A DNA stretch of 64,000 nucleotides from Nitrospirota bacterium. Its GTDB lineage: Bacteria > Nitrospirota > Thermodesulfovibrionia > Thermodesulfovibrionales > JdFR-88. Numbering within the stretch: the first letter of the stretch is position 1; every line of letters begins with the position of its first letter. A program made the position numbers and the translations under genes. The stretch covers positions 1 to 64,000 of the forward strand of contig JAJYIR010000012.1 of NCBI GenBank assembly GCA_021789935.1, in the 5' to 3' direction. This document shows, piece after piece, positions 30,019-57,819 of this stretch. Under the pieces are notes generated by a model, which was not told the origin of the DNA, did no database searches, and saw only the letters and a program-made list of their open reading frames with translations.

Positions 30019-30258
30019 ATGCTTGTATTGACGAGAAAATCCGGGGAGGCCGTAAGGATAGGGGAAGACATCACCGTTACTGTGGTCGAGGTCAGGGAGG
30101 GGCAGGTCCGGCTGGGTATCAATGCGCCGCAGGGCATCAGGATATATCGCGAGGAGGTCTATGAACGGATAGTCAAGGACAACCTCGTGTCCTCCTCCAT
30201 CTCCATTGACGAGTTCAGTAAAATAAGAGAGGCGGTGAAAGGTGAAGATAAAATTTAA
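30019..30258 (+). CDS. csrA: Translational regulator CsrA
   Basis: CsrA is an RNA-binding dimer that recognises GGA in hairpin loops and blocks ribosome binding. The 79-residue protein starts MLVLTRKSGEAVRIGEDI and has the RNA-contact segment IRIYREEVYERI. The longer C-terminus is typical of FliW-dependent CsrA types. It overlaps fliW by 17 bases, so the pair is made together. The likely target is the flagellin leader at 40.55-40.66 kb. Confidence 0.97.
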   Translation: MLVLTRKSGEAVRIGEDITVTVVEVREGQVRLGINAPQGIRIYREEVYERIVKDNLVSSSISIDEFSKIREAVKGEDKI

Positions 30259-30631
30259 GACCTCCCGTTTTGGAGACCTGGAGGTTGAAGACTCCAGGGT
30301 AATAGATTTTCCGCATGGGATACCCGGGTTTTCCTCCCTTAAGCGGTATGTCCTTATGGACTACAAGGACACCCCTTTAAAATGGCTCCAGTCTGTGGAT
30401 GACCCGCATGTGGCCTTCATTGTTGCGTCACCCGAGACCGTGACAACCGGATATCAGGTAAATGTGGACGAACCGGCCAGGCGTTCCCTGGCCCTTGCGC
30501 GGGAGGAGGACCTTGCCGTGCTTCTTATCCTCAGGGTGCAGACAGGCAAGGTGATTGCCAACCTGAAGGCCCCTCTGCTTTTAAACTCATCATTGATGAG
30601 AGGCATTCAGTTCCTGCCTGAGAGGCTTTAA
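30242..30631 (+). CDS. fliW: Flagellar assembly factor FliW
   Basis: FliW binds CsrA and flagellin. When cytoplasmic flagellin is low, FliW is freed, binds CsrA and relieves repression of flagellin translation. The 129-residue protein has the family pattern RFGDLEVEDSRVIDFPHGIPGF and VASPETVTTGYQVNV. Start is GTG at 30242, inside the csrA 3' end. Normal length. Confidence 0.95.
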   Translation: MKIKFKTSRFGDLEVEDSRVIDFPHGIPGFSSLKRYVLMDYKDTPLKWLQSVDDPHVAFIVASPETVTTGYQVNVDEPARRSLALAREEDLAVLLILRVQTGKVIANLKAPLLLNSSLMRGIQFLPERL

Positions 30632-30694: not shown

Positions 30695-30846
30695 TAAAGA
30701 CAAAATCTGTAAAAATTAAAAATACTATTTATGAGAAGCGTCAAAAGACCGTCAGGACCGATCTTCCATGCGCCTTTTTTGCCATTCTCTTCCGTCAAAT
30801 CCCCTGTATTAAGCCCCCTTATCATTAAAATTAAATCTCTTTTTGT

Positions 30847-30862
30847 TGGCATAGTAATTGCT
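30847..30862 (+). promoter_or_regulatory. Sigma-54 promoter of the giant glycosyltransferase operon
   Basis: TGGCATA-GTAA-TTGCT is a full match to the conserved positions of sigma-54 promoters. Transcription should start near 30873. It places the two giant genes in the same promoter class as flgF and fliL. Confidence 0.82.
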
Positions 30863-30938
30863 TTTTAAGACTGCATTGAAGTAATTGACGGATGTTTGAC
30901 ATCCGCGTTAAGGCGGGTTTTGAGACAAAAGGGGGAAA

Positions 30939-33900
30939 ATGCTGGACTATTTGACGAATGGCAAAGCGGTCGTTACGATTGTCGAGCCTCCGGGGTATCC
31001 TCACAGCGCTGCATTCCGGGAGATTGCCGAGACCGTTTATTACGGGCTTAAGGCGCAAATAAAAAAAATCGGGGTAAACAACTTTCTTGATGACGGTTTG
31101 AACATTATTTTTGGGGCACATCTGCTTACCCCGAAGCAGATGAACTCTCTGCCCGAATGCTCGGTGATATACAACCTTGAACAGGTAGATCCCTCTTCCA
31201 TGTGGAAGGGGATAAAACCCCTGCTCGGACGCTTTCCGGTCTGGGATTACAGCCTTCGCAACATAGAGGCGTTCAGATCCATGGGGTATGGGGGTGCCGT
31301 TTTCCATGTGCCTGTCGGGCACCGTCCGGAGATGACGCGCATCCAGCCTGCTCCCGTTCAGGATATAGATGTTCTTTTTTATGGCTCCATAAACGAACGC
31401 AGGGAAAAAATACTGGCGGCGTTAAGGCGCCAGGGACTCCGGGTGGAGGCGCTTTTCGGCGTTTACGGCGCGGCGCGCGATGCCCGCATCTCAAGGGCAA
31501 AAGTGGTCCTCAATCTCCATTTTTACGAGTCCAGCATATTTGAGCTGGTGAGGGTCTCCTATCTGCTTTCAAACGGGAAGGCCGTAGTTGCCGAATGCAA
31601 TGAGAATACGGAAATAGACCGGGACATTGAGGGAGCGTTCATCTCTGCCCGCTATGACCGGCTTGTCCACGAATGCAAAGCTCTTGTTAAGGATGGCGAA
31701 AGAAGAAAGGCGCTTGAAACCTCTGCCCTGAAGAGGTTTTCCGCCAGGGATGAGGACGTTTATCTGGATGCGGGCCTGGCGTGGGCAAATTCTTTCCTGG
31801 AAAAGAAGATGAAAAGCGGAGGCCGCGGTTTTTCCCTTTCTTCGACCGAAGATGCGCCAAAACGTATGAATCTGGGTAGCGGCAAGGATTTTCGACCTGA
31901 ATTTCTTAACGTGGACTGGAATGATTACTGGTGCCCCGATATAATCCTGAACCTGAATGAGCCAATCCCGTTCGGTAAGGCGCTGCCCTCCACCCGGTTC
32001 GGAGATCTGGTTCTCGAGGAAAACAGTTTTGACGAGATCATGGCAAATGATCTTTTTGAGCACATACGAGAGCTTCAGGCCCTGATGACGTCGTGCCTTA
32101 AACTGCTCAAGGATGGGGGAGAGCTGAAACTGAAAGTCCCTTACGACTTAAGCTATGGCGCATGGCAGGACCCCACTCATATCCGGGCTTTCAATGAGAA
32201 GAGCTGGCTTTATTACACGGATTGGTTCTGGTATATGGGCTGGACGGACGCAAGGTTCGATCTGGCCTCCATGAAATTAAATCTGAGCGATTATGGGAAC
32301 ACATTGCGGGAAAAGATGCCGGATGAGTCCCTGGTGCGGCAGCCGCGGGCGGTTGACAATATGGAGGTCGTATTGCGCAAACGCCCATTGACACCCCAGG
32401 AGCTCGATTTTGAAAAAGAACAAAACAAAGGCATCAAACCTTACGTGTTGGCTGAAGGGAAGAAGGCTGCCGCTGATTCCCATGGCGGACCAGGGGCCAG
32501 CTTTTCCGGCCATAGTGAAGAAAAAATATCCGCTGGTTCAGACGTCCCCGATGCGGCTTCAGTAGAGAATGAGTTTTTTGTTGAGAGGAAGGAGGCCGCC
32601 GGCACGAACGGGCTCGTCTCTATTGTGCTCCCGGTGCCGGACCGGCTGAAAGAGATACAGAAGTGCCTTCAAAACATTGAGAAGCATACCCCTGAACAGC
32701 ATGAGATAATCCTGGCCGCCCATGGATTAGGGAGCGGTGCCGCAAGGTGGATAAAAAAGCAGGCGGAAGCCAATCCCGGATACAAAATCGTTGAAACAAG
32801 CGGGGCCGGCTTTGCGACCATGTGCAATGAGGGCGTCAGGGCATCATCGGGCGGGTACATAGTTTTTCTGGACAGCGGCGTGGAAGTGACCGAGGGCTGG
32901 CTTGCCGGGATGCTTGCCTGCATGGAAAATATTGAGGGCGGCCCCGCAGAGGATGTCATTGGCGGCCCCCCCATAGTGGGCCCGATGTGCAACGTTGCGG
33001 AAGGGTTTCAGAAAGCCGGCTGGTTGGAGGCAACAAAGACGGGTGGAGGCGAAAAGAAGGGCAGCTCTGGCTGGCAGGAGTACGCGCCGGCCTTCAGGGC
33101 CGATAATCTGCACCGCCGGGTCCCCGCGCAGAGACTGGACGATTTTTGCATAATGGCCGGCCGCACGTTATTTAAGAAAACCGGTTTTTTTGATGAGGCA
33201 TTAGTGTCCCGGCCCTATGCCGTGCTGGATTTCATTCAGCGCGCGGTGCTCGGAGGCTCAAGGTGCTTCATAGCTGCAGATACGCTTGTTTACAGGGACC
33301 CGCAGGAGGCTGAAAAAGGATCGCAAGAGGAAAAAGACGACGGCAGAAAAGCCTTCGATGAGAAATGGAGTCCCATGGATCCTCAAAGCCCGGAGGCGAA
33401 AAAGCTGGGAGCTATAAGACTTTTTGAATCCGGAGTGCAGGCGGACCACATGGGCGACCTTGGAAAGGCGGTGGAGAACTTTGTCGAGGCCATAAAGAAT
33501 TCCCCCATGGATAATTCGCCGTTCGTTAAGGGGCTTTATTACCGGTTCGCGCGTATGCTCATCCGGGGCGGGGAGTTCAGGCACGCGCTGGAAGTCCTCT
33601 CGAAGTTGCCAGAGGGGCCCGGTACAGGGACGGCTGAACCGGACTTTTTTGACCCGGTGCTTGATAAAAAAGAGGCCGCAGGGCTTGAACTTGCGGGATA
33701 TTGCAGAGACGGCCTTGGAGAATCTTTGGAAGCGGATGAACTCGCCCGAGGCGCGCTTAAGCTGCACGGGGGGGCGGGGGCCCTTAACCTGATGGGCCTT
33801 ATTGAGTTCAAAAAAAATTCGCCGGCAAACGCCGCTTCATATTTTGAGGAGGCGATAAAGGCCGATGCTGGTTACGGCGAGGCGTATGCCAATCTCGGTG

Positions 33901-36900
33901 CGCTCAGATGGACGGAAGGCAGGAAGGAAGAGGCGTTTGGTTTTTTTGAAAAGGCTTTTGTCCTGTCCCCCGCTGCGGAAGATATAATCACCAACTATTA
34001 CAGCGCTCTTACCGAGATGTGTTCCGTTAAAAAGGACATTCTGGACAAGGCCATACCGATCGTAAAACAGGCCATCGTCTTTTATCCGGCAAAAAAACGT
34101 TTAAGGCATATTCTAGCGGAGTTTTACTTCAGGAGCGGCCGAAACAGGGATGCGCTCGAAGTGCTTGAAGATGGCTTTTTGTCCTTCGGGGTTGATGATG
34201 AATCGCTTTCCATCGCTCTGAAGATAAGAGACCTGCTTGGGCCGGAAGATATCGTTCCCGGCGACGGCAAGGGCGAAAAAACTCTGTCCATCTGCATGAT
34301 AGTAAAAAACGAGGAAAAAAACATCGTGCGCACTCTCCTGAATCTGAGGCCGCTTGCGGACGAACTGATAGTTGTGGATACGGGCTCTTCCGACCGAACG
34401 AAGGATATCTCCAGGGCGCTTGGGGCACGGGTCTTTGATTTCGACTGGACGGGAGATTTCTCGGCCGCGAGGAACTTCTCCATCTCAATGGCAAGGGGCG
34501 GCTGGATATTGGTGATGGACGCGGATGAGGTCATATCCCCGTCAGACCGCAAGGAGCTGAGGGCGCTTATCAGGGGCCACAGGCAGGCCTATGGCATCAC
34601 AACAAGAAATTACGTCCTTTCTCCGGGCGCCTGGGGATGGACGGAAAACGATGGCGCATATCCGGAGCAGGCCGGAACGGGCTGGATACCCAGCACGAAG
34701 GCAAGGCTCTTTCCCAACGATGAGAAGATACGTTTCAGAAACCCCGTGCACGAACTGGTGGAGGTCTCGCTTGAGGAAGCCGGCATAAAAGTTGTGCTCT
34801 CGGGAATACCAATTCACCATTATGGGAAACTGGTCGCGGGCAAGGTTAAGGAAAAAGGCACCGATTATTACGAGATGGGCAAGGCGAAGCTTTCCGGCAA
34901 GGGCAGTGATGATTTTAAGGCGGCCATGGAACTTGCAGTACAGGCGGGAGAGCTTGGCAGGTGGGAAGAATGTCTCGAAAACTGGAGGAAGGTCTCAGAC
35001 ATCAGACCCGGTTACAAGGCGGCGTACCTGGGGATGGCGGACGCATTGTGGGGGCTCGGCCGCTATGAAGAGGCCATGCAGGCCATAGACAAGGGTTTCG
35101 AGTCGCCGCTTGACCGGATGGAGACAAGTCATTTATATGCGCGCTGCCAGGTATTGTCAGGCAAGGCTGAGGCCGCGGTCTCATTGCTTGAAAAAAGCAG
35201 GAGCAAGCACCCCATGGTCCTGTCCACACTGGCCCTGGCGTATCTTTGCACAGGCAGGAAGGAAAGGGCAAAAGAGCTTGCAAAACAGGCTGGCCGGGTC
35301 CTGAATATGTCCGCCCTGTTTGCCAATTATGCCAAGAAATTGATAGAAACAGGCAGGCCGGATTATGCGGCCCCGATTATTGAATATCTGACGGGAAAAA
35401 AGATCGCGGACCCCGCAATGCTGGCCCACGGTTATCTTAAGGAAGCGAGTTCAGGCAACCCGGAACTTGCCCTGTCCGGCGGACCGGACCAAAAAGATGA
35501 AAAAAATCCGGTTTCTTTGTGCAAGGACCCTTCTGCCTCCGCCGGAAATGTGGTCCCCGGCGGAAGTCCTCAAAAAGGCAATATTTTGATAATAGACCCG
35601 CGTTTGCCTTGGTTTGACAAAACATCGGGGTCATTAAGGCTCTTTTCCATCCTGCGGCTTCTGAGAAAACAGGACTATCATGTTACGTACATTGCGCGCG
35701 ACGGCATGGACCAGGATGATTACACAAGGGTGTTACAAAAGATGGGAATTGAGGTCTATGCCACAGATCCGCAAAAGTTGCGCCAAATCGGGGTGGGAAT
35801 ACAGGGCAAGAATTTTCCCGATATCGATTTAAAGCGAATACTGACCGAACGGTCTTATGACATAGCAATATTGTCCTTTTATGATGTCGCGCTTCAATAT
35901 CTGCCTGAAATACGGGCACATTCCCCAAAAACAAAGATACTGATAGACACTGTTGACATCCATTTTGTCCGGGAACAGAGAATGGCCCAATTAAACAACA
36001 GTAAAAAATTGCTGGAAAAGGCGAAGGAGACAAAGGACAAGGAACTGAGTATTTACGGCAAGGCCGACGCCGTTATAACGGTCACCGAAAATGACTGGGA
36101 ACATATAAAGGGTTATCTCCCATCGGTTGCGCACTATGTAATACCAAATATCCATGCCTCCGATAACGGCCCTGTGGAATTGAATGATCGGGCCGGCCTG
36201 GCATTTGTGGGGAATTTCAATCATTTGCCAAATGTAGACGCTGTAAGTTATTTCCTGCGCGAGATATTCCCAAAGGTCAGGGAAAAGCTGCCGGATATAA
36301 CATTAACGATTATTGGACCATACCTCCCAAAAGATATTGTCTCTCTGAAGAGCGACGATATTATTGTGGCGGGCTATGTGCCGAAAACTGAACCATACCT
36401 GAAGAAGGCCAGGGTCTCCATCGCCCCGCTTAGATACGGCGCAGGCATGAAGGGGAAGATAGGGGAGGCAATGGCGCACGGGGTGCCCGTGGTCACAACT
36501 TCCGTTGGCGCCGAGGGCATGGGCCTCACTCACGGCGCAACGGCCATGATAGCGGATTCGCCTGAAAGTTTCACGGAGTGCATTGTTAAATTGTGCTCCG
36601 ATGACCGGCTCTGGCACAAAATATCGGCCGATTCAAAGAAATTTATAGCGCAGAACTACTCGTTTGAAAAAGTTGGCGCGCAATTGGCCCACATGTTGAG
36701 AAATGTGACAGGTGAAGGACGGACGTCTCCCGGGGCAGGCGTGGACATTGCGCGGGCGGGGGGCAATGTGCTTGTGCTTGGCATATATCTGGCTGACCAG
36801 ATGAACAACGTTGATGAGATCGTAAGACAGTTCAATGCGCCAGGCAAATGGCGTGTGGTCCAGAAATGGGCGGCGATAGGGGAGAGAAGGGTTAATGGAC

Positions 36901-37466
36901 ATGTTCAAAAAGTTACATGCAAACAATTTCAAAAGGGCCTTCCAAAATTCACCCTTTTAAACGGGATGCTCTCAGGTGAAGATCTGCGGAAATATGATTA
37001 TATAATTATTTGCGACGATGATATAAAAATGGAAGAAGGTTTCCTGGACAAATATCTCGACCTCGTAGCCAAACATGATTTTGCCCTCGCCCAGCCGGCC
37101 AGGACCCATAACAGTTATATAGACCACCATTTTGTGGAACAATTGCAGGGGCTCCAGGCCAGGCAGACGCGCTTTGTCGAGATCGGCCCGTTTTTTTCCA
37201 TCCGCAAGGACATTTACTCTGATATCTTCCCGTTTGATGAGACCTCGCCCATGGGATGGGGCTATGATTTTGTGTGGCCATGCCTTATAGAGCGCCTAGG
37301 GCTGAGGATGGGGATAGTGGATGCCGCTCCGGTGGAGCATAGCATGCGAAAGCCTGTTAAGAACTACAGCTATGAGGAGGCCCGCTCCTCCATGGAAAAA
37401 TACCTTTCCAAAAACAGAAATATGCCCAAAACCGAGGCTTTTAAGATATTGGAGTCCTATGCGTAA
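30939..37466 (+). CDS. Giant multidomain glycosyltransferase with TPR segments
   Basis: One unbroken frame encodes 2175 residues. Modules in order, with approximate residues: a CgeB/GT-B-like module (1-295; FYESSIFELVRVSYLLSNGK); a methyltransferase-like module (308-490; RMNLGSGKDFRPEFLNVDW); a GT2-like module (557-790; FLDSGVEVTEGW, without a clear DxD); TPR repeats (820-1090); a GT2 module (1115-1310; SICMIVKNEEKNI, VMDADEV); more TPR (1320-1490); a GT4 module (1547-1925; FVGNFNHLPNVDA, GEAMAHGVPVVTTSVGAEG); and a last GT-A-like module (1940-2175; IICDDDIKMEEGF). No signal peptide or membrane helix is seen, so it is cytoplasmic. A sigma-54 promoter and its place between fliW and flagellin suggest flagellin glycan assembly; surface polysaccharide synthesis is the alternative. 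Confidence 0.85.
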   Translation: MLDYLTNGKAVVTIVEPPGYPHSAAFREIAETVYYGLKAQIKKIGVNNFLDDGLNIIFGAHLLTPKQMNSLPECSVIYNLEQVDPSSMWKGIKPLLGRFPVWDYSLRNIEAFRSMGYGGAVFHVPVGHRPEMTRIQPAPVQDIDVLFYGSINERREKILAALRRQGLRVEALFGVYGAARDARISRAKVVLNLHFYESSIFELVRVSYLLSNGKAVVAECNENTEIDRDIEGAFISARYDRLVHECKALVKDGERRKALETSALKRFSARDEDVYLDAGLAWANSFLEKKMKSGGRGFSLSSTEDAPKRMNLGSGKDFRPEFLNVDWNDYWCPDIILNLNEPIPFGKALPSTRFGDLVLEENSFDEIMANDLFEHIRELQALMTSCLKLLKDGGELKLKVPYDLSYGAWQDPTHIRAFNEKSWLYYTDWFWYMGWTDARFDLASMKLNLSDYGNTLREKMPDESLVRQPRAVDNMEVVLRKRPLTPQELDFEKEQNKGIKPYVLAEGKKAAADSHGGPGASFSGHSEEKISAGSDVPDAASVENEFFVERKEAAGTNGLVSIVLPVPDRLKEIQKCLQNIEKHTPEQHEIILAAHGLGSGAARWIKKQAEANPGYKIVETSGAGFATMCNEGVRASSGGYIVFLDSGVEVTEGWLAGMLACMENIEGGPAEDVIGGPPIVGPMCNVAEGFQKAGWLEATKTGGGEKKGSSGWQEYAPAFRADNLHRRVPAQRLDDFCIMAGRTLFKKTGFFDEALVSRPYAVLDFIQRAVLGGSRCFIAADTLVYRDPQEAEKGSQEEKDDGRKAFDEKWSPMDPQSPEAKKLGAIRLFESGVQADHMGDLGKAVENFVEAIKNSPMDNSPFVKGLYYRFARMLIRGGEFRHALEVLSKLPEGPGTGTAEPDFFDPVLDKKEAAGLELAGYCRDGLGESLEADELARGALKLHGGAGALNLMGLIEFKKNSPANAASYFEEAIKADAGYGEAYANLGALRWTEGRKEEAFGFFEKAFVLSPAAEDIITNYYSALTEMCSVKKDILDKAIPIVKQAIVFYPAKKRLRHILAEFYFRSGRNRDALEVLEDGFLSFGVDDESLSIALKIRDLLGPEDIVPGDGKGEKTLSICMIVKNEEKNIVRTLLNLRPLADELIVVDTGSSDRTKDISRALGARVFDFDWTGDFSAARNFSISMARGGWILVMDADEVISPSDRKELRALIRGHRQAYGITTRNYVLSPGAWGWTENDGAYPEQAGTGWIPSTKARLFPNDEKIRFRNPVHELVEVSLEEAGIKVVLSGIPIHHYGKLVAGKVKEKGTDYYEMGKAKLSGKGSDDFKAAMELAVQAGELGRWEECLENWRKVSDIRPGYKAAYLGMADALWGLGRYEEAMQAIDKGFESPLDRMETSHLYARCQVLSGKAEAAVSLLEKSRSKHPMVLSTLALAYLCTGRKERAKELAKQAGRVLNMSALFANYAKKLIETGRPDYAAPIIEYLTGKKIADPAMLAHGYLKEASSGNPELALSGGPDQKDEKNPVSLCKDPSASAGNVVPGGSPQKGNILIIDPRLPWFDKTSGSLRLFSILRLLRKQDYHVTYIARDGMDQDDYTRVLQKMGIEVYATDPQKLRQIGVGIQGKNFPDIDLKRILTERSYDIAILSFYDVALQYLPEIRAHSPKTKILIDTVDIHFVREQRMAQLNNSKKLLEKAKETKDKELSIYGKADAVITVTENDWEHIKGYLPSVAHYVIPNIHASDNGPVELNDRAGLAFVGNFNHLPNVDAVSYFLREIFPKVREKLPDITLTIIGPYLPKDIVSLKSDDIIVAGYVPKTEPYLKKARVSIAPLRYGAGMKGKIGEAMAHGVPVVTTSVGAEGMGLTHGATAMIADSPESFTECIVKLCSDDRLWHKISADSKKFIAQNYSFEKVGAQLAHMLRNVTGEGRTSPGAGVDIARAGGNVLVLGIYLADQMNNVDEIVRQFNAPGKWRVVQKWAAIGERRVNGHVQKVTCKQFQKGLPKFTLLNGMLSGEDLRKYDYIIICDDDIKMEEGFLDKYLDLVAKHDFALAQPARTHNSYIDHHFVEQLQGLQARQTRFVEIGPFFSIRKDIYSDIFPFDETSPMGWGYDFVWPCLIERLGLRMGIVDAAPVEHSMRKPVKNYSYEEARSSMEKYLSKNRNMPKTEAFKILESYA

Positions 37467-40401
37467 AGGGACTGAACAGGCCCGCCTCGCCCCCGGTCCA
37501 AATCCGTTTCAGGGGCTTGCAAATACCGTTGCCTTAAGCGTGATAATCTGCACGTACAACCGCGCTGAGCTGTTAGGAAAGGCCCTTGAAGGGTTTGAAA
37601 GGCAGACGCTTGGCAGGGATAAATTCGAGGTCATCATCATAGATGACGGATCATCCGATCAAACAAGGCAGGTTGCGGAGGCGTTTGCCGGCAGGCTGAC
37701 GTTAAGGTATTTCTACCAGAAAAACGCCGGGCTGGCCGCGGCCAGAAACCATGGCGTATATGTTTCAAGGGGCAGGATACTCTTTTTCTCCGATGATGAT
37801 GATGTCGCGGCGCCGTCACTGCTTGAAGAGCATCTCGATACGCATATGCGGTATCCGAAGCCAAATTTTGCCGTCCTGAACTATACCGGGTGGGCTCCCG
37901 GACTTCATGTGACGCCTCTTATGCATTTTGTTACCGAGGTGGGCTGTTTTTTATTCTCATACCCGCACATAAAGCATGGCAGCATATTGGACTATACCTA
38001 TTTCTGGGGCGGGCGGACTTCGTGCAAGAGGGATTTCCTGATAGAGAACGGTGTTTTTAACTCTGTGTTCCGCTTCGGATGCGAGGACATTGAGCTTGGC
38101 TACCGGCTCTCCAAAGCAGGCCTCAAGGTCGTCTTTAATAAAAACGCCGTGTCTTACATGGCCCGCCCCGTGAGTTTCGAAGAATTTTGCAACAGGCTGA
38201 TAAAGCAGGGCAGGTCGCAATACATTTTTAGCGAAATGCATAGCGATCCCGCCGTTCAAAGCTGGGCCGAGATACCGATGGCCGGAAAATGGCCGGAAAT
38301 AGAAGGCTCATTCGACAGCATGAAAAAAGCCGCGATGGAGCTTGATACATTTGCAAACAATGAATTGAAAAAAGGCGTGGTAATAGACGTTACTGCCAGA
38401 GAGCATCTTTTCAAGGCCTACTGGTGGGTCTTCAGAGCCTGCAAGATAAAGGGCATGGCCCAGGCCAAGGCGGAGCAGGAAGGCGGCCATTGCAAGGCGC
38501 TGAAGCAGGTGCCGGATGCGGCGCAGCTCCCTTCTGAACAAAAAGCCGTAGTCTCATCTGGAACCGGGCAAAACGAGGCATTGGCGCTGCCGTTTGACCA
38601 GTATCAAAGATACAGAATGGTCGCCGATATAATAAACAGGTTCAGAGGCGGGGATGAAAGATTCAGCATAATTGATGTGGGCGCGGGTTATGAGGAAAAT
38701 CTGAAAAAATTTCTGCCTGGGGACAATATATACTGCCTTGACAAAGATTATCCGGAATCTCTTCTGCAGAAGGGCAATTTTATTTCAGGAGGGTTCACCA
38801 GGTTAAGCACGGAGGAAAAATATGATTTTGTTGTCTCGATGGACTGCTATGAGCATATAGCGCCGGCAGACAGGGAATTGTTTATAGACAGACTGGCCGG
38901 CACCTCCAAAATGGCCACGATCATCGCGGCACCATTCGATACCGAAGGCGTCAGTGAGATGGAGATGCGCGCCAACGAATTATACAGAGTGGCACGTGGC
39001 ACAGACTACAAATGGTTGAAGGAACACATTCAAAACGGGCTTCCGTCGCTGGATTTCACTTTGCGGCTTGTGAAAAGCCGGGGTTTTGAACCCGCCATTG
39101 TCCCAAATGGATATCTTGAGCGCTGGATTGAGATGATGCCCATATACCTGCTTGCAGGGGAAAGGAGCGAGTTTTCAGAGATCCTGCGCGCTCTTTCGAT
39201 TTTTTACAATGTGAATTTTTATCTGGATGACAACAAAGGCCCTGCATACAGGCATGTACTGATTATAAATAAAATGAAATGGCCTGAAACGTCTTCTTTC
39301 GATGATCTGGTTTCTCCGCGGCCGGAAACTGATGAAGATATGGACTTCAAAAAACAATTGCTTAATGCCTACCTTGGGCAAATAAAATGTCTGTTCCAGA
39401 TGGTCGAATCCGAAGACAAGGAATCTTTTTTGGGAGAACTGGACCAGAGAAATAATGAAGTTAAAAATCTGGAGGCCGAACTTAAGGAGAAAATCGCTCG
39501 TAAGACCTCCATAAGGGACAATGATGGCCGGTTTCTGACCAAGTGGGTCAATTTTGAGTTTTGTTCTTCATGCAATTTGCGCTGTAAATGGTGTTCCCTG
39601 GACCACTCGAAAAAAAAATGGCTCATGACCGGTGAAATACTGGCCAAGGCCCTGGATGAACTTGCGGAGAGCACAAATTTCGATATAGACCGAATCGATT
39701 TGCATAATGCCGGAGAAGTGCTGCTGCATCCGGACCTGGAAAGAATGCTCCTCGTTATCAAAGAGAAAAAGGAGGCATTCCGCCGTAAGCCGACTGTCCA
39801 CCTTCTGACCAATGCAATGCTTCTTGATGAAAGGCGGTCTGCAATAATCACCGGATCGGACGCCCTGGATGAGATAAGGTTCAGTGTCGACGGCGGGAAT
39901 CCGGAAAATTATAAAGAAATAAGGCGCGGGGGCGATTGGAACACAGTAAAAAATAATGTTTTGAATTTCATCGGTCAAAACAGGGAAAAAGGGAACAAGA
40001 TCAAAACCGGGGTGATCTGTATCGTGCCGCCCGGGATGCCTCTTAAAACAGATTGGATGGATGATGATTTCCGCGCCCTTTTTTCCCGGATTGACAACGT
40101 TGAACTCAGGCATCCCCACAATTGGGATGGCAGCAAGGACTTGCATCTGGAAAGTAATATCCATAAAACCGAAGGCCAGTTATGCAAGTTTCTTCTAAAA
40201 AACCTTGTCGTTCTGCCAAACGGGGATGTGACAGTGTGCTGCGCGGACCTCAATTCGCGTGGAGTCGTCGGAAATATAGCGGAAAATTCACTTGAGGAGA
40301 TATATCTTTCAGCGCGGCGTTTGAGCATGCTCGATCTGTACAGAAACGGAGAGATGGAGAATATAGTTTTATGCAAGAATTGCGCCGGTTATTATGAATA
40401 A
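37459..40401 (+). CDS. Glycosyltransferase-methyltransferase-radical SAM/SPASM fusion
   Basis: ATG at 37459 (GGAG at 37451-37454) overlaps the previous stop by eight bases and gives 980 residues. A longer in-frame start at 37321 lies inside the upstream gene. Modules: a GT2 domain (about 24-300; LSVIICTYNRAELL, FFSDDDDVAAPS, FGCEDIELGYRL); a SAM-dependent methyltransferase-like domain (about 400-560; IIDVGAGYEENL, SMDCYEHI); a coiled linker; and a radical SAM domain with C705-x3-C709-x2-C712. A SPASM-like C-terminus follows (about 908-976; VVLPNGDVTVCCADLN, CKNCAGYYE). The combination suggests sugar transfer plus radical modification of a sugar or peptide. Substrate unknown; flagellin is the best positional candidate. 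Codon use looks somewhat more AT-rich than in neighbouring flagellar genes by eye. Confidence 0.87.
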   Translation: MRKGTEQARLAPGPNPFQGLANTVALSVIICTYNRAELLGKALEGFERQTLGRDKFEVIIIDDGSSDQTRQVAEAFAGRLTLRYFYQKNAGLAAARNHGVYVSRGRILFFSDDDDVAAPSLLEEHLDTHMRYPKPNFAVLNYTGWAPGLHVTPLMHFVTEVGCFLFSYPHIKHGSILDYTYFWGGRTSCKRDFLIENGVFNSVFRFGCEDIELGYRLSKAGLKVVFNKNAVSYMARPVSFEEFCNRLIKQGRSQYIFSEMHSDPAVQSWAEIPMAGKWPEIEGSFDSMKKAAMELDTFANNELKKGVVIDVTAREHLFKAYWWVFRACKIKGMAQAKAEQEGGHCKALKQVPDAAQLPSEQKAVVSSGTGQNEALALPFDQYQRYRMVADIINRFRGGDERFSIIDVGAGYEENLKKFLPGDNIYCLDKDYPESLLQKGNFISGGFTRLSTEEKYDFVVSMDCYEHIAPADRELFIDRLAGTSKMATIIAAPFDTEGVSEMEMRANELYRVARGTDYKWLKEHIQNGLPSLDFTLRLVKSRGFEPAIVPNGYLERWIEMMPIYLLAGERSEFSEILRALSIFYNVNFYLDDNKGPAYRHVLIINKMKWPETSSFDDLVSPRPETDEDMDFKKQLLNAYLGQIKCLFQMVESEDKESFLGELDQRNNEVKNLEAELKEKIARKTSIRDNDGRFLTKWVNFEFCSSCNLRCKWCSLDHSKKKWLMTGEILAKALDELAESTNFDIDRIDLHNAGEVLLHPDLERMLLVIKEKKEAFRRKPTVHLLTNAMLLDERRSAIITGSDALDEIRFSVDGGNPENYKEIRRGGDWNTVKNNVLNFIGQNREKGNKIKTGVICIVPPGMPLKTDWMDDDFRALFSRIDNVELRHPHNWDGSKDLHLESNIHKTEGQLCKFLLKNLVVLPNGDVTVCCADLNSRGVVGNIAENSLEEIYLSARRLSMLDLYRNGEMENIVLCKNCAGYYE

Positions 40402-40517: not shown

Positions 40518-40545
40518 TAAAGTTTTCCCCCTCCTATTCCGATAA
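40518..40545 (+). promoter_or_regulatory. Sigma-28 (FliA) promoter of flagellin
   Basis: TAAAGTTT (40518-40525), 12 bases, TCCGATAA (40538-40545). The -35 box is perfect and the -10 box has one mismatch to the enterobacterial FliA consensus. The spacing is the same as at the flgM promoter. The transcript would start near 40552. Confidence 0.8.
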
Positions 40546-40551
40546 ATAACC

Positions 40552-40662
40552 TAAAGGTTCAGAGCGGCTCCAGAAGGAGGTGACCCGCAAGACTTTCGGA
40601 GCTCAGCAAAGGACCGTTAAACGGCAAGGATGCCGGAACTAAAATTCATGGAGGAAGAACAA
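40552..40662 (+). promoter_or_regulatory. Structured flagellin mRNA leader with CsrA-type sites
   Basis: The roughly 110-base leader has several GGA triplets. One sits in the loop of a perfect hairpin, CGGCA-AGGA-TGCCG (40622-40635), which is the classic CsrA target form. Another pair lies in the flagellin ribosome site GGAGGA (40650-40655). An upstream hairpin CTCC-AGAA-GGAG (40568-40579) overlaps AAGGAGGTGA (40574-40583), a perfect match to the 16S 3' end with no start codon at usable distance. CsrA binding at the ribosome site would block flagellin translation; FliW would relieve it. Confidence 0.65.
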
Positions 40663-41481
40663 ATGTCATTAGTAATCAACACGAACCTTTCATCGATCGA
40701 CGCACAGCGGAACCTGACTGTGACCGGGCAGGACCTTAAAGTAGCAATGCAGAGGCTTTCTTCGGGCCTCAGGGTCAACTCGGCAAAAGACGACTCCGCC
40801 GGTTTTCAGATCGCAAGCAGCATGACCTCACAGATAAACGGTCTGAACCAGGCGGTAAGCAACACCAACAACGCGAACTCCATGGTGCAGACCATGATGG
40901 GCGCCATGAACCAGATCCAGGACTCCCTGCAGAGGATGAACGAGCTTGCGGTAGAAGCCTCTGACGGCAGCACCCAGAACGACCTCACATCAATCAACGA
41001 CGAGTACCAGGCGCTCATGTCGGAAATAGACACTATCGCCAACCAGACCAAGTTCAACGGCACGAACGTGCTCAACGGCTCTACTGCGATAACATTCCAG
41101 ATAGGTTATGAAAACAGCTCGAACGACCAGCTGGCAGTGACCACTGTCAACGAGACGTCCACCGCTCTGACCATAAACAGTACGGATCTGTTATCACAGG
41201 CGAACGCCCAATCGGCCATCAGCTCGATTTCGAGCGCTCTCAACAAGCTCAGCCTGGATGATGGAGCGCTGGGCGCGGTCAGCAACAGGCTGGACACCCA
41301 GGCGGCCAACCTCCAGAACGTTTCAGAGAACACCACGGCCGCACGGTCCCAGATAGTAGACGCAGACTTCGCCGCGGAGACCGCTGAAATGACGAAAGAT
41401 ACGGTCTTGCAGCAGGCCGGTATATCGGTCCTGGCTCAGGCCAACCAGCAGCCGCAGATGGTGCTTAAACTGTTGCAGTAA
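40663..41481 (+). CDS. fliC: Flagellin
   Basis: Flagellin is the filament subunit. ATG at 40663 has GGAGGA with a seven-base spacer and gives the usual start MSLVINTNLSSIDAQRNL; an in-frame ATG at 40630 lies inside the leader hairpin and is rejected. The N-terminal D0/D1 (about 1-135) contains LSSGLRVNSAKDDSAGFQIA, and the C-terminal D1/D0 (about 190-272) ends SVLAQANQQPQMVLKLLQ. The 272-residue length leaves only a short variable middle, rich in Thr, Ser and Asn, where modification sites might lie. It is followed by a strong terminator. Confidence 0.96.
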   Translation: MSLVINTNLSSIDAQRNLTVTGQDLKVAMQRLSSGLRVNSAKDDSAGFQIASSMTSQINGLNQAVSNTNNANSMVQTMMGAMNQIQDSLQRMNELAVEASDGSTQNDLTSINDEYQALMSEIDTIANQTKFNGTNVLNGSTAITFQIGYENSSNDQLAVTTVNETSTALTINSTDLLSQANAQSAISSISSALNKLSLDDGALGAVSNRLDTQAANLQNVSENTTAARSQIVDADFAAETAEMTKDTVLQQAGISVLAQANQQPQMVLKLLQ

Positions 41482-41544: not shown

Positions 41545-41865
41545 ATGGAAATCAAGCCGTCTAATCAGTCTGGGGTGAACCCTGCTTCCGGATTGGCGAA
41601 AGCTGCAACGGAGGCTGAACGGACGCAATCCGCCGGCAAGGGGCAAAAGGCAGCAGAGGAAAGCTCGAGGAAGAAGGCCGTGCAGCAGACCGCGACGCAG
41701 GCGCAGGACAAGACGATTTTTGCATTGGACAGCGAAAACAGGGTGGTCATACAAAGGCTTGACGCAAATGGCAAGGTCCTCCAGCAGATACCGCCGGAGG
41801 AGTTCGGCCCGGTGGCCAAGGAGCTTAAGGCGCTTATGAAAAACATTTTCAGCAGGGAGGCGTAA
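41545..41865 (+). CDS. flaG: FlaG family protein
   Basis: FlaG proteins influence filament length in several bacteria. The 106-residue protein has a low-complexity Ala/Lys/Gln N-half and a conserved C-half, TIFALDSENRVVIQRLDANGKVLQQIPPEEF, typical of FlaG. It lies between the flagellin terminator and fliD, the usual position. AGGGGTGAG just upstream serves as a ribosome site. Confidence 0.9.
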   Translation: MEIKPSNQSGVNPASGLAKAATEAERTQSAGKGQKAAEESSRKKAVQQTATQAQDKTIFALDSENRVVIQRLDANGKVLQQIPPEEFGPVAKELKALMKNIFSREA

Positions 41866-41868
41866 AAA

Positions 41869-43374
41869 ATGGCCGAATGGACGGGTCTGGTATCAAGTTC
41901 CACCGGTATGTATTCGGGGCTTAACATCTCCCAGATAGTCAGTACTATTGTGCAGGCGGACAGCCAGCCCCTGACCGACCTGCAACACAAGGTTAGCGCG
42001 GACAACGCCCAGATAAGCGCATACGGAAGCCTGGCAAGCTCCCTTTCGAGCTTGAATACGCTGTCGCAGAGCATGAGTCTACCCACCATTTACGGGATGG
42101 CGGCCACCTCCTCGGACAGTTCCGTACTTACGGCAACGGCAAGCTCTACCGCAGCTTCCGGCACTTACAGCATAACGGTAAACCAGCTCGCGCAGTCGCA
42201 GAGCATATATTCGGCGGGTCTGGCCTCGGAGACTTCCACGGCTGTAGCCAACTCAGGAGACACGGGGTTTCAAATCCAGGCAGGTAACGGGAATTCAGCC
42301 TCCATAACATACGATTCGGCAAATAACGTCTTTGACTTTGGAGGACAGACGTACTCCAATAGCCTCGATGGAGTGATGAACGCAATCAACGCGGCAAGCC
42401 AGGCTGACAGCCTTGGGGTGGCCGCATCAATCATAAATAACGGGTCCACATACCAGCTTGTCTTATCCTCAAACAGTGCCGGTGCGGCAAACAGAATGAA
42501 GATAATGGTCGAGCCGTCGGGAAGCTCATCATATGGTGACGCCACCGGCGCATCCGGAATCAACCAGCTCGCCTTCGACCCGACCTATAATACCGGCGGC
42601 AGTGTAAGCGGCTACGGATCGTACACGAACATGCAGCAGTCCATGGCCGGCCTTGATGCCAGCTTCTCATTAAACGGCATCAGCGTAACCCGGCCCACGA
42701 ATGACATTACCGATCTTGTAAGCGGGGTGACGATAAACCTTCTTCAGTCCAGCTCAAACCCGGTCAACCTGACCGTAGCTAACGACAACGCCGGGTTCAC
42801 CACCCAGATAAACAGCTTTATCTCCACTTACAACACGGTCATGAGCGCAATAAACGGGGCCATAGGCAACCAGTCCAAGCAGGGCGCGCTTTACGGTGAC
42901 AGCCTTACAAAAGATCTTCGCGGCACGCTCTATGACATGACTACGAATCCGTATAACGGGACCTCACTTGCGGCCCTTGGCTTAACGCACGATGATACCG
43001 GCAATCTTGCGCTCAATACGACAGCATGGAATGCCGCGCTCGCCGCGGACCCAAACCAGGTGCTTGGCGCGATAAACCAGATGGCCTCATCGCTCCAGTC
43101 CACGATGAATTCTTACATAAACAATATTATTCCTAATGCCGAATCAGGGTTGAACAGCCAGATATCGCTCTACCAGCAGCAGGAGCAGCAGCAGCAAAAC
43201 GAGCTCAATACCATACAGCAGGCGCTGACGCTGGAGTTCCAGAACATGGAGCAGACCCTCAGCACGATTGACTCGCAAAGCAGCGCCATGTCAAACATGT
43301 TGAGTTCAGGCTCGACTTCCTCATCCACATCGACCGGCACAAGTTCAAGCAGCAGCGGAGGGACCACGGCATGA
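41869..43374 (+). CDS. fliD: Filament cap protein FliD
   Basis: FliD caps the filament and folds flagellin at the tip. The 501-residue protein has the N-terminal pattern SGLNISQIVSTIVQADSQPLTDLQ and a C-terminal coiled helix rich in Gln (YQQQEQQQQNELNTIQQAL). Unusually, the protein ends in about 27 residues of almost only Ser, Thr and Gly after SSAMSNML. Such a tail is disordered and could be a glycosylation target. It overlaps fliS by four bases. Confidence 0.95.
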   Translation: MAEWTGLVSSSTGMYSGLNISQIVSTIVQADSQPLTDLQHKVSADNAQISAYGSLASSLSSLNTLSQSMSLPTIYGMAATSSDSSVLTATASSTAASGTYSITVNQLAQSQSIYSAGLASETSTAVANSGDTGFQIQAGNGNSASITYDSANNVFDFGGQTYSNSLDGVMNAINAASQADSLGVAASIINNGSTYQLVLSSNSAGAANRMKIMVEPSGSSSYGDATGASGINQLAFDPTYNTGGSVSGYGSYTNMQQSMAGLDASFSLNGISVTRPTNDITDLVSGVTINLLQSSSNPVNLTVANDNAGFTTQINSFISTYNTVMSAINGAIGNQSKQGALYGDSLTKDLRGTLYDMTTNPYNGTSLAALGLTHDDTGNLALNTTAWNAALAADPNQVLGAINQMASSLQSTMNSYINNIIPNAESGLNSQISLYQQQEQQQQNELNTIQQALTLEFQNMEQTLSTIDSQSSAMSNMLSSGSTSSSTSTGTSSSSSGGTTA

Positions 43375-43742
43375 TAAGTCAGCAGTATGCAAGCAACGCG
43401 TACATGAAAACCATGGTAAACACATCGGCATCCAAGCTGGATCTGGTCATAATGCTCTATGACGGCTCGATAGAGTTCCTCAAAAAGTCCGTGTTTTACA
43501 TGAACCAGAAGGACGTTGGTAAAAAGCTCCTTTATATGGACAAGGCCATGGCCATAATACATCACCTTATGGCGACCCTGAACATGGAGGCGGGCGGCGA
43601 GATAGCCCAAAATCTGCAAAAGCTGTATATGTACATGCTTACGGAGCTTACCATTGCGAATATAAGGAACGACGCAGAGAAGATAAACCGTGTGGAGGGG
43701 CTCCTTAACACTCTCCGGGAAGGCTGGAAAGGGATAAGATGA
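43371..43742 (+). CDS. fliS: Flagellin chaperone FliS
   Basis: FliS binds the flagellin C-terminus and prevents early polymerisation. The 123-residue protein has the family pattern YASNAYMKTMVNTSASKLDLVIMLYDGSIEFL and ends with the helix NRVEGLLNTLREGWKGI. It overlaps fliD before it and the next small gene after it by four bases each. Confidence 0.95.
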   Translation: MISQQYASNAYMKTMVNTSASKLDLVIMLYDGSIEFLKKSVFYMNQKDVGKKLLYMDKAMAIIHHLMATLNMEAGGEIAQNLQKLYMYMLTELTIANIRNDAEKINRVEGLLNTLREGWKGIR

Positions 43743-53380: not shown

Positions 53381-54475
53381 ATGTGCGATGAGTTTTTTCC
53401 CCCGATAGGAAAAGGCGGCAGCGGGGGTGGAAGCAAAAAGAAAAAGACCGTTCCGGTATCACTGGCAGCCGGAATGGTGCTTGCCCACGATATTACCGAG
53501 GTACGTCCGGATTTTAAGGGGCGGGCGTTCAGGAAGGGGCACATCGTCAAACAAGAGGATATCGCCCACCTGATGAGGCTGGGAAAGGAACACCTTTATG
53601 TCCTTGCTCTGGCCCCTGAGGAGATGCACGAGGACGAAGCGGCGTCAGTGATGGCGGCAGCCGTTATGGGCAAGGGCGTGGAAGCGGGGGAGTGCCGCGA
53701 AGGGAAGATCAATGTGTCCGCCTCTATTGACGGGCTTTTAAAAGTAGACAAAGAGGCGCTGATGGAGTTCAACATGCAAGGCGAAATAATGTGCGCCACC
53801 TTGCACGATGGCACCGTTGTGCGGAAAGGGCAGACGGTAGCGGCCACACGAGCAATACCGCTTGTCGTGGACCGCCGGGCTGTGGAGCTGGCTGCCGGCA
53901 TTGCACGCGAAAAAGGAGGCATCGTAAAGGTCCTGCCGGTCAGAAAGCCCAAAACAGGTGTTGTGATTACCGGCGAAGAGGTGTTTTCGGGACGGATAAA
54001 GGACGCCTTTGCCCCCGTCATCAGGGGGAAAATAGAGGCATTGGGCGGGGAAATAATCGGTATCGCCTATGCCCCCGATGATGAAAACTTCATCGCGGCA
54101 AGGCTAAGGGAATTCCTGAATAAGGGGGCGGACCTGCTTATCGCGACAGGTGGAATGTCCGTGGATCCGGACGACGTCACCAGGTTTGCCATAAGGGATT
54201 TAGGCGCCCGGGACATCACATATGGGGCGGCGGTGCTGCCAGGCTCGATGTTCCTTTCGGCCACCATAGAGAACGCGAAGGGTGCTGTTGTGCCAGTCTT
54301 AGGAGTACCTACCTGTGCCATGTACGGCAAGACAACCATATTGGACCTCATGCTGCCAAGGATACTTGCGGGAGAGGAGATTGGCAGGAGGCAGCTGGCG
54401 GAACTTGGGCACGGGGGCCTGTGTCTCCACTGCAGCGTGTGCCGCTGGCCCGTTTGTCCTTTTGGAAAATTTTGA
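53381..54475 (+). CDS. MoeA-like molybdopterin-binding protein
   Basis: The 364-residue protein is related to MoeA/MogA proteins of molybdenum cofactor synthesis. An N-terminal MoeA-like part has VSLAAGMVLAHDITEV and FRKGHIVKQEDI. The MoCF-binding domain (about 190-330) has GVVITGEEVFSGRIKD and LLIATGGMSVDPDD. The C-terminus ends in a Cys-rich tail, CLHCSVCRWPVCPFGKF, unlike classic MoeA and able to bind metal. It lies 20 bases before moaA. True insertase activity is not certain. Confidence 0.85.
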   Translation: MCDEFFPPIGKGGSGGGSKKKKTVPVSLAAGMVLAHDITEVRPDFKGRAFRKGHIVKQEDIAHLMRLGKEHLYVLALAPEEMHEDEAASVMAAAVMGKGVEAGECREGKINVSASIDGLLKVDKEALMEFNMQGEIMCATLHDGTVVRKGQTVAATRAIPLVVDRRAVELAAGIAREKGGIVKVLPVRKPKTGVVITGEEVFSGRIKDAFAPVIRGKIEALGGEIIGIAYAPDDENFIAARLREFLNKGADLLIATGGMSVDPDDVTRFAIRDLGARDITYGAAVLPGSMFLSATIENAKGAVVPVLGVPTCAMYGKTTILDLMLPRILAGEEIGRRQLAELGHGGLCLHCSVCRWPVCPFGKF

Positions 54476-54495
54476 CCTGTTCCCGGAGATCCATC

Positions 54496-55449
54496 ATGGA
54501 ACTTAGAGACTCTTTTGGCAGGAAGATAGACTATATAAGACTCTCCGTAACGGACAGGTGCAATCTTCGCTGCATATACTGCAACCCGGGTAACGCTTCG
54601 AGGTGTTCTTTAAATCCGGGCAAGATGCCGAAATTCGAAAAAATAACCCGTTTTTTGCGTGTTGCCAGGAAATACGGGTTAAAAAAGGTAAGGCTCACGG
54701 GGGGCGAACCTCTTTTAAGGAAGGATATAGTCCATCTGGTCCGTGAGATCAAGGCCATTGGTATAGAGGACCTCAGCCTTACCACAAACGGCCTTCTGCT
54801 TCCGTTTTTTGCAACGGAGCTCAAGATGGCGGGGCTGGACAGGGTAAATATAAGCCTTGACTCCCTGAATCCGGACCGCTACGGATCAATAACCGGCGGC
54901 GGCAGACTGGGCGATGCTCTTCGGGCCATCAGGGAGGCCGAAAAGGTCTTTTGGCCGGCCCCGGTCAAGATAAACATGGTCCCTATAAAGGGCGTAAACG
55001 GAGACGAAATACGCGGTTTTGCTCAAATGACCCTGGAGAACCTTTTTCATGTCAGGTTCATAGAGCTTATGCCGGTTGGCGGCAGTGCCTTTGAGGAAAT
55101 GAGAATCACGTCCGGGGAAGCCAAGGATGCGATATCCTCCATGGGCGGGCTTCTTCCTCTTGGCCGTTCCGGCTCTTCAGACAACTACGCGCTTCCGGGC
55201 GCCAAGGGAGTGATAGGTTTCATAAGTCCCATGAGCGGCCATTTATGCGATTCCTGCAACAGGCTGCGCATAACGCCGGCGGGCAAAATAAGGCCCTGTC
55301 TTTTCTCGGACCATGAGCAGGACCTGAATACGGCTTCCACCGAAGATGAGATGGAACGGTTATTGCTCATTTCAGTATTGAGCAAAGAGAAAGGGAGTCT
55401 TCTTAAGAGGGCTGTACAGTTCGATACCATGCAACAGGTTGGGGGTTAA
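54496..55449 (+). CDS. moaA: GTP 3',8-cyclase MoaA
   Basis: MoaA is the radical SAM enzyme that begins molybdopterin synthesis from GTP. ATG at 54496 (CGGAG upstream) gives 317 residues. The N-terminal cluster is C22-x3-C26-x2-C29 in RCNLRCIYC, followed by RLTGGEPLLRKDI. The C-terminal cluster region reads CDSCNRLRITPAGKIRPCLF. The protein ends in Gly-Gly, the tail needed by the family. A longer in-frame start at 54421 lies inside the previous gene. Confidence 0.95.
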   Translation: MELRDSFGRKIDYIRLSVTDRCNLRCIYCNPGNASRCSLNPGKMPKFEKITRFLRVARKYGLKKVRLTGGEPLLRKDIVHLVREIKAIGIEDLSLTTNGLLLPFFATELKMAGLDRVNISLDSLNPDRYGSITGGGRLGDALRAIREAEKVFWPAPVKINMVPIKGVNGDEIRGFAQMTLENLFHVRFIELMPVGGSAFEEMRITSGEAKDAISSMGGLLPLGRSGSSDNYALPGAKGVIGFISPMSGHLCDSCNRLRITPAGKIRPCLFSDHEQDLNTASTEDEMERLLLISVLSKEKGSLLKRAVQFDTMQQVGG

Positions 55450-55452
55450 GGC

Positions 55453-56277
55453 ATGTTCAGAAAGGGTTTTCCCCAGATTTTTGTTAAAAGGTTTTTGGCC
55501 GTTCCAGTGATTTTTTTGTTGGCCGCCGCCTTTTTTGTAACTTTTTGTCCGCTGGAGGGACACGCCGCCGCTCAAAACAATCAAGATATCACCGTCTCGG
55601 CGGCAATAAGTCTTAAAAACGCCTTCAACGAGATAGCAAAGATATACGAGGAAAGGAACCCGGGCGTAAAAATACTATTCAACTTCGGGGCTTCGGGCAA
55701 CCTGATGATGCAGATAGAGGAGGGCGCGCCGGTGGATGTCTTTGCCTCCGCAGCCGAAAAACAGATGGACGATCTGGCGGGAAAAGGGCTCATAGCGCCA
55801 GGCTCCAGGGTGGATTTCGCCGAAAATACCGTTGTCCTCATCGTTCCATCGGGACAAAAGAGCGCATTTGTCAAAGGCTTCATGGACCTTACGGACCCTC
55901 GCATAAAAAGGATCGCCATAGGCAACCCCAAGTCCGTGCCCGCCGGAATGTACTCGGAAGAGACTCTCAAATATTTTGGGCTTGGGACTTCCGTAAGTAA
56001 AAAAATTATATACGGCGAGCATGTGAGGCAGGTGCTTGAATACGTTGCAAGGGGAGAGGTGGACGCTGGTCTCGTTTACTCCACGGATGCCAGGATTGAG
56101 GCGGGGCAGGTGAGGGTGGCGGCTGTCGCGCCGCCCGCCAGCCACAAACCGGTCGTGTACCCCATAACGGTCGTCAGAGGGTCGGCAAACGAAAAACTCG
56201 CGCGGACTTTCGTGTCTCTGGTTACATCACCGGAAGGTAAGAAAATCCTCCGGAAATACGGGTTTGAATCGAAATGA
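55453..56277 (+). CDS. modA: Molybdate ABC transporter binding protein ModA
   Basis: ModA captures molybdate or tungstate in the periplasm. A signal peptide (about 1-36) precedes the mature sequence ITVSAAISLKNAFNEIAKIYE. Conserved blocks include NFGASGNLMMQIEEGAPVDVFASA and KSVPAGMYSEETLKYFGL, and the C-terminus resembles ModA (YPITVVRG). Length is 274 residues. It lies three bases after moaA. Confidence 0.94.
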   Translation: MFRKGFPQIFVKRFLAVPVIFLLAAAFFVTFCPLEGHAAAQNNQDITVSAAISLKNAFNEIAKIYEERNPGVKILFNFGASGNLMMQIEEGAPVDVFASAAEKQMDDLAGKGLIAPGSRVDFAENTVVLIVPSGQKSAFVKGFMDLTDPRIKRIAIGNPKSVPAGMYSEETLKYFGLGTSVSKKIIYGEHVRQVLEYVARGEVDAGLVYSTDARIEAGQVRVAAVAPPASHKPVVYPITVVRGSANEKLARTFVSLVTSPEGKKILRKYGFESK

Positions 56278-56352
56278 TTTTTTGTCCCCTTTTATTTTTT
56301 CTTTTTTCTTTCTCTTTTACGCCTTTGACCGGCTGGGAGACTTGGTGAACCT

Positions 56353-57018
56353 ATGAGCGCTAACGGGATGTTTTCGCTCAGGCTGTCGTTTCAGGTTGCC
56401 CTGGTAGTGACATTTTTCATACTGCTTGCCGGTGTCCCGGTCTCTTACATTCTGGCGAGGAAAAAATTCCGTGGCAAGGAACTTCTGGACGCGCTTTTTA
56501 CGCTTCCCCTGGTGCTCCCGCCGACGGTAACGGGATATTACCTGATAGTCCTTTTGGGCCGGAACGGGTTTTTTGGCCGTCCGCTTTACAACCTCACCGG
56601 CTGGACTGCCATGTTCACCTGGTGGGCGGCGGCGGCGGCCTCCTTCGTGGTGTCCATACCGCTTATGATAAGGACCTCCAGGGCCGCGATAGAATCCGTG
56701 GATGAAAACCTTGTGAACGCTTCCTATACACTGGGACATGGAGAGCTCAAGACCGCGCTCAGGGTGGTGCTCCCTCTTGCGAAAAAGGGAATAATGGCCG
56801 GGGCAGTGCTTTCCTTCGCAAGGGCGATAGGCGAGTTCGGCGCAACTCTGATGTTTGCCGGCGACATACCCGGCAAGACGGAGACCATGCCGCTTGCCAT
56901 CTACAATTACCTTGAAAACGGAGAGTGGGACAGGGCGCGGGCCATGGCCATCATACTTACCGTTTTGTCAGTGTCGGTCATATATATCGCCAACAGGTTA
57001 AGCAAGAGGATATTTTGA
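56353..57018 (+). CDS. modB: Molybdate ABC transporter permease ModB
   Basis: ModB is the membrane channel of the molybdate importer. The 221-residue protein has about five helices, with the family sequence LPLVLPPTVTGYYLIVLLGRNG and the cytoplasmic EAA loop (SYTLGHGELKTALRVVLPLA). Length is normal. modC follows after two bases. Confidence 0.95.
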   Translation: MSANGMFSLRLSFQVALVVTFFILLAGVPVSYILARKKFRGKELLDALFTLPLVLPPTVTGYYLIVLLGRNGFFGRPLYNLTGWTAMFTWWAAAAASFVVSIPLMIRTSRAAIESVDENLVNASYTLGHGELKTALRVVLPLAKKGIMAGAVLSFARAIGEFGATLMFAGDIPGKTETMPLAIYNYLENGEWDRARAMAIILTVLSVSVIYIANRLSKRIF

Positions 57019-57020
57019 AA

Positions 57021-57779: not shown

Positions 57780-57819
57780 TCCATCACAATAGAGCAATAG
57801 AGCTTAAAAAGAAAGTTAT

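Follow-up and report, generated by a model that had tools for sequence, protein, structure and literature searches.

Flagellar locus and gene pair

The two overlapping genes that lie between csrA-fliW and the flagellin gene in the analysed stretch of Nitrospirota DNA (64,000 nucleotides, here called the window) very probably encode a cytoplasmic flagellin O-glycosylation system, combining GmaR-like initiation with fast-evolving add-on modules. A role in flagellin modification had been proposed in an earlier note on the grounds of gene position. The flagellar assignment now goes beyond position, because it is supported independently by homology to Listeria GmaR, by a conserved sigma-54 promoter and by its presence or absence together with flagella in the genomes of the family; that flagellin itself is the substrate is still what we infer. 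The locus comprises the following features:

30019..30258, + strand, csrA
30242..30631, + strand, fliW (PF02623, 101.7 bits)
30846..30862, + strand, sigma-54 (-24/-12) promoter TTGGCATAGTAATTGCT, a perfect consensus match 77 nt before ORF1
30939..37466, + strand, ORF1 (GTx), multi-module glycosyltransferase of 2175 aa (open frame; 76% identical homologue in genome G003)
37459..40401, + strand, ORF2 (GTy), 980 aa (ATG at 37459; 8-nt overlap with ORF1)
40518..40545, + strand, sigma-28 promoter of flagellin
40630..41481, + strand, flagellin, the presumed substrate (PF00669/PF00700; start probably at 40663, giving 272 aa, by family alignment)
41545..43742, + strand, flaG (by homology), fliD and fliS

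Both reading frames are open at the lengths first described, and the stop codon of ORF1 and the ATG of ORF2 overlap in ATGCGTAA, which suggests translational coupling. Taken mechanically, the ORF2 frame begins at 37321 and is 1026 aa long; from the ATG it is 980 aa. A second species has the whole pair conserved, 76-78% identical, so that a chance ORF is excluded. The placement of the pair between csrA-fliW and flagellin-flaG-fliD-fliS was likewise confirmed: Pfam recovers flgM, flgN, flgK, flgL and fliW upstream and flagellin, fliD and fliS downstream, and csrA and flaG are identified by sequence and homology only. There is a single flagellin in the genome; the other Flagellin_N match is FlgL. 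An Rfam search of the window returned no RNA families. Downstream of the flagellar cluster, at 54421-60525, the window contains ORFs that read as MoaA-like radical SAM, ModA/ModB-like and formate-dehydrogenase-like.

Module content

Eight modules were distinguished in ORF1 (X1 to X8) and three in ORF2 (Y1 to Y3):

30939..31838, + strand, X1, GT-B-like module, tentative (Foldseek best matches are GT-B/GT4 enzymes)
31839..32573, + strand, X2, SAM methyltransferase-like, LNLGSG motif (Methyltransf_11, 23.7 bits, cut-off 21.2)
32589..33488, + strand, X3, GT2 fold with catalytic motifs lost (GT-A fold in model; motif alignment)
33489..34268, + strand, X4, TPR block (Pfam TPR; helical-repeat model)
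34269..34928, + strand, X5, GmaR-like GT2 (phmmer and profile matches to GmaR)
34929..35498, + strand, X6, TPR block after X5 (Pfam TPR)
35541..36728, + strand, X7, GT4 (GT-B) module, TIGR03087-like
36741..37463, + strand, X8, GT-A, DUF707-like, with DDD and GWGYD (DUF707, 29.1 bits, cut-off 24.1)
37513..38520, + strand, Y1, GT2 (EpsD-like), DDDD motif intact
38548..39525, + strand, Y2, methyltransferase-like, weak, IIDVGAGYE (Methyltransf_23, 19.9 bits against a cut-off of 27; Gly-rich motif by eye)
39526..40398, + strand, Y3, radical SAM (CNLRCKWC) plus SPASM (Radical_SAM 48.4 bits, SPASM 38.6 bits, both above cut-off)

Pfam assigns to ORF1 two GT2 stretches, a GT4 domain (Glyco_trans_1_4), TPRs, a DUF707-like GT-A C-terminus and Methyltransf_11, and to ORF2 a GT2 domain, a weak Methyltransf_23, Radical_SAM and SPASM. 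Together with the fold matches, this gives six glycosyltransferase-like modules, two methyltransferase-like modules, two TPR blocks and one radical SAM-SPASM module. The module count of the earlier note is thereby borne out as a count, with the qualification that X3 is probably inactive and X1 tentative. The N-terminal 300 aa forming X1 had no Pfam or NCBIfam match, and because the AlphaFold model of X1-X2 has a pLDDT of 48, the tentative GT-B call for X1 is a lead only.

Kinship of X5 with Listeria GmaR

For the whole of ORF1 the best solved relative is Listeria GmaR (3.5e-25). With X5-X6 alone, phmmer gives 1.4e-26 against GmaR (22ao) and a profile search reaches 2.7e-39, far better than SunS; the likeness is limited to X5-X6, at about 28% identity. 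A structure search for the X5 part of X3-X6 placed the S-glycosyltransferases SunS and ThuS at the top, both of which are protein-modifying GT2 enzymes. X5 is the best-conserved module, and its motifs VDTGS and DAD/DGD are kept in 10/10 aligned homologues. In the plasmid collection, the matches of X5-X6 include a Listeria GT2 gene located two genes upstream of flagellin. X5 is a GmaR-homologous GT2 with intact motifs and a TPR block on its C-terminal side, and it is probably the flagellin-initiating transferase.

GmaR transfers GlcNAc to flagellin and consists of glycosyltransferase, TPR, linker and antirepressor domains, being a bifunctional protein (PMC9638930). This bifunctionality would speak for a giant protein whose main task is the control of flagellar genes, glycosylation being a secondary activity. 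According to Pfam, X6 is followed by a GT4 domain, which speaks against such a regulator; we consider it very improbable.

X3 as a probable pseudo-glycosyltransferase

The motif alignment of X3-X6 covers ten homologues, six of them from the window's own family. In X3, the NDP-binding D and the DxD-type motif are both missing in 6/6 of these family members. Among the other homologues, VDNG/IDNG and NND are retained in G052, G050 and G059, and G020 retains NDD only. The AlphaFold model of X3-X6 (pLDDT 80.6, pTM 0.74) shows X3 as a GT-A fold, with a best VIA Z of 20.6 to GalNAc-T2; since most of the VIA rows concern the X3 part, nothing can be concluded from the absence of other folds there. Sequence divergence is likewise faster in X3 (50-60% identity versus 72-86% in X5; in G004 38% versus 52%). 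X3 is probably a non-catalytic pseudo-glycosyltransferase, whose fold may be retained for structure or acceptor binding. Because X3 is without the NDP-binding and DxD-type residues, it is not likely that all six glycosyltransferase modules are active.

Promoters and expression

The region as delimited by the earlier note begins at 30847, which coincides with the sigma-54-type site at 30846-30862. A site without mismatch is found in G000, G003, G007, G009 and G011, and in the last four of these it lies 53-82 nt before the homologue. One mismatch is seen in G001, G050, G052, G059 and G078, at 27-90 nt before the gene or an operon mate. In total, a site with 0-1 mismatch precedes the gene in 10/14 homologues from flagellated genomes; as background, 68 of 8806 search windows of the same size contain a site at ≤1 mismatch (0.8%, homologue sites included). 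No good match was present in the flagellated G004, G305, G168 and G151, and no site in the flagellum-less G020 and G090. In G011 the site is kept although csrA-fliW is not upstream. Within the window, flgF also has a sigma-54 site, with one mismatch. Near-consensus sigma-28 sites were found before most of the flagellins compared. Judged by its promoter, the glycosyltransferase operon resembles the mid-class operons of flagellar systems and would be made before flagellin.

Distribution and genomic context

The widely shared part of the pair is X3-X6, here referred to as the core. It is present in 20/296 genomes of the phylum sample. In the window's own family (f1), the core and X1 occur in 7/7 genomes with flagellin (G000, G001, G003, G004, G007, G009, G011). 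The near-complete G005, G006, G008 and G010 are without the core and also without flagellin and FlhA; G002, which is only 76% complete, is without flagellin and FlhA as well. The order csrA-fliW-glycosyltransferase and/or glycosyltransferase-flagellin is seen in G000, G001, G003, G007 and G009. A search of genome contigs with ORF2 gave no close relatives beyond WY3.bin97, which matches G003, and WY1.bin133, which matches G001.

Among the flagellated carriers that could be resolved, 11/14 have the core at most about 15 kb from flagellin or flgKL (G000, G007, G050, G059, G052, G078, G305, G124, G156, G151, G171); G168, with a contig of 7.6 kb, was left out of this count. In the flagellated G214, G277 and G308, no flagellar genes lay close to the core within the stretches retrieved. 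Flagellin is present in 15/20 core carriers versus a base rate of 183/296 in the phylum, which hardly separates the two; it is distance and promoter, not flagellin presence alone, that set the core carriers apart. A different observation concerns G063, a Nitrospirota genome of 6 Mb in which Flagellin_N is matched 13 times, several of the matches sharing contig C59.

One alternative is that the two genes serve to make a polysaccharide of the cell surface (O-antigen, capsule or EPS) and owe their place in the flagellar cluster to chance. Some tail modules do belong to families common in such loci, namely the EpsD-like Y1 and the TIGR03087-like X7, and also WbsX and GT9 in G009. The location next to flagellin or flgKL is shared by several families, though; the sigma-54 promoter is conserved, the core is missing from flagellum-less members of the window's own family, and the nearest solved structure is a flagellin transferase. 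We consider a polysaccharide function quite improbable. Homologues lying mostly in O-antigen or capsule loci had been named as the finding that would speak against the flagellar proposal; of those in flagellated genomes, most are located near flagellin or flgKL. Across species, the glycosyltransferase genes are linked to flagellin, with G214, G277, G308 and the f10 genomes that lack flagella as exceptions.

These exceptions from family f10 are five genomes (G020, G032, G041, G090, G097) that carry the core elsewhere and have no FlhA or flagellin match, so that the core module is not exclusively flagellar. A partial scan of the neighbours showed TPR-GT41 proteins (OGT/SPINDLY-type) in G020 and G032, a UDP-galactopyranose mutase and a glycosyltransferase-methyltransferase in G041, and one sulfotransferase-like neighbour in G090, which points to glycosylation of other targets in the flagellum-less f10 genomes. 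Three f10 loci, L056:6345-15338 (G020), L063:7201-14649 (G041) and L089:7322-16237 (G090), encode chains of 2.5-3 kaa with repeated GT2-TPR-GT2-TPR units, a candidate protein O-glycosylation system.

The same chemistry could also be directed in flagellated species at FliD, at hook-associated or at several exported proteins rather than mainly at flagellin, and at other surface proteins in the flagellum-less relatives. This is favoured by G050 and G059, where the gene directly follows flgK-flgL, and by the five f10 genomes without FlhA, two of them with TPR-GT41 neighbours. In the window's family, in contrast, the genes abut flagellin, and the precedents GmaR and FlmG act on flagellin (PMC9638930, PMC7591256). 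We regard another main target as unlikely, and flagellin as the preferred one.

Mosaic evolution of the tail modules

Within family f1, X1, X4 and X5 are retained; to judge from the contigs, which are fragmented in G001, G003 and G011, X2, X7, X8 and Y1-Y3 are present in some members and missing in others. G009 has WbsX, GT9 and another methyltransferase in place of the tail modules, and both G007 and G009 distribute the modules over their genes in another way. In G001, a UDP-galactopyranose mutase gene (L054:2029-3447) lies two genes upstream of flagellin, which suggests that its flagellar glycan contains galactofuranose. In G011, RmlD is encoded upstream; RmlD was rejected as a discriminating marker, since RmlD_sub_bind matches occur in 12/12 family genomes and are uninformative.

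Further additions are WbsX in G305, a sulfotransferase-like domain in G059 and an FkbM methyltransferase and GT10 in G124. Between flgKL and flagellin of G078 (L087:5835-11709), a radical SAM-SPASM module is fused to hexapeptide repeats, and its gene overlaps one encoding a methyltransferase plus the core glycosyltransferase; a sigma-54-like site is present there. In G171 (L097:741-4652), PF01973 (MptE-like, formerly DUF115/Maf) is part of a multi-glycosyltransferase protein adjoining the core; the distance to flagellin is about 5 kb. The sugar genes of G001 and G011, the radical SAM-SPASM module of G078 and the PF01973 domain of G171 speak for a role in flagellin glycosylation. The tail modules vary while the flagellar proteins of G001, G007 and G009 are 64-79% identical to those of the window; by this comparison, the set of modules evolves more rapidly than the flagellum. 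Gain, loss and swapping of tail modules between species would alter the glycan at the filament surface, and variable filament glycans are the expected result of such an exchange.

Proposed mechanism and comparison with known systems

In the proposed mechanism, the sigma-54 promoter would switch on ORF1-ORF2 alongside mid-stage flagellar genes and before the sigma-28-driven flagellin. The TPR blocks X4 and X6 may hold flagellin in the cytoplasm, by analogy to Caulobacter FlmG, and X5 would add the first sugar to Ser/Thr, as its homology to GmaR implies. X1, X7, X8 and Y1 are predicted to extend the glycan, X2 and Y2 to methylate it, and Y3 may introduce a further chemical change in the sugar or peptide. 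A methylated glycan is plausible, given the two methyltransferase-like modules and the precedent in C. difficile (PMC5207246).

The earlier note had also pictured a single-chain assembly line with TPR segments as scaffolds. This picture is weakened by the probably dead X3, with its motifs lost in 6/6 family members so that not all glycosyltransferase modules appear competent, by tails swapped or lost between close relatives and by the different division of modules in G007 and G009. A full megasynthase, in which TPR arms hold flagellin for a GmaR-like start, extension, methylation and a final radical SAM step, a retired glycosyltransferase serves as dock and tails are exchanged between species, is conceivable, but we consider it rather doubtful.

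Flagellin glycosylation loci with multi-domain glycosyltransferases are already familiar. Listeria monocytogenes GmaR shares with X5, of which it is the best solved match, a GT2 followed by TPRs and a gene near flagellin. It differs in being a protein of 637 aa with a single glycosyltransferase and an antirepressor, whereas here GT2-TPR is embedded in a chain of 2175 aa with more glycosyltransferase and methyltransferase modules. The C. difficile type B flagellin cluster encodes GT1, GT2 and GT3, and GT2 combines PF00535 with PF08241, for which rhamnose addition and methylation were proposed (PMC5207246). Several glycosyltransferases beside flagellin, one fused to a methyltransferase, are common to both systems; in C. 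difficile they are separate genes, and the available part of that report describes no TPR or radical SAM fusion. PA1091 (FgtA) of Pseudomonas aeruginosa PAO1 unites a GT2 and a phosphotransferase for the flagellin glycan (PMC11833859), thus resembling the present case as a multi-domain protein with GT2, with another second activity and far fewer modules. In Caulobacter FlmG the TPR binds flagellin (PMC7591256); it likewise joins TPR and glycosyltransferase, but has a GT-B domain, acts with pseudaminic acid and comprises 596 aa.

Literature searches on flagellin islands with radical SAM, on Nitrospirae flagellin glycosyltransferases and on multi-glycosyltransferase polypeptides, in which subscription literature was thinly covered, gave no description of the system. 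The fused, partly mosaic layout appears to be undescribed, as none of GmaR, C. difficile GT2 (as far as described) and FlmG has such a fusion. GmaR-type flagellin glycosylation would extend to uncultured Nitrospirota as a fused mosaic with a conserved core and a rapidly changing tail. Should the chain function as one unit, it might become a compact tool for producing defined methylated glycoproteins and allow glycan structure to be tested against module content. The radical SAM-SPASM module, which in G078 likewise lies next to the core, suggests a chemistry on flagellar sugars or peptides that the literature found does not describe.
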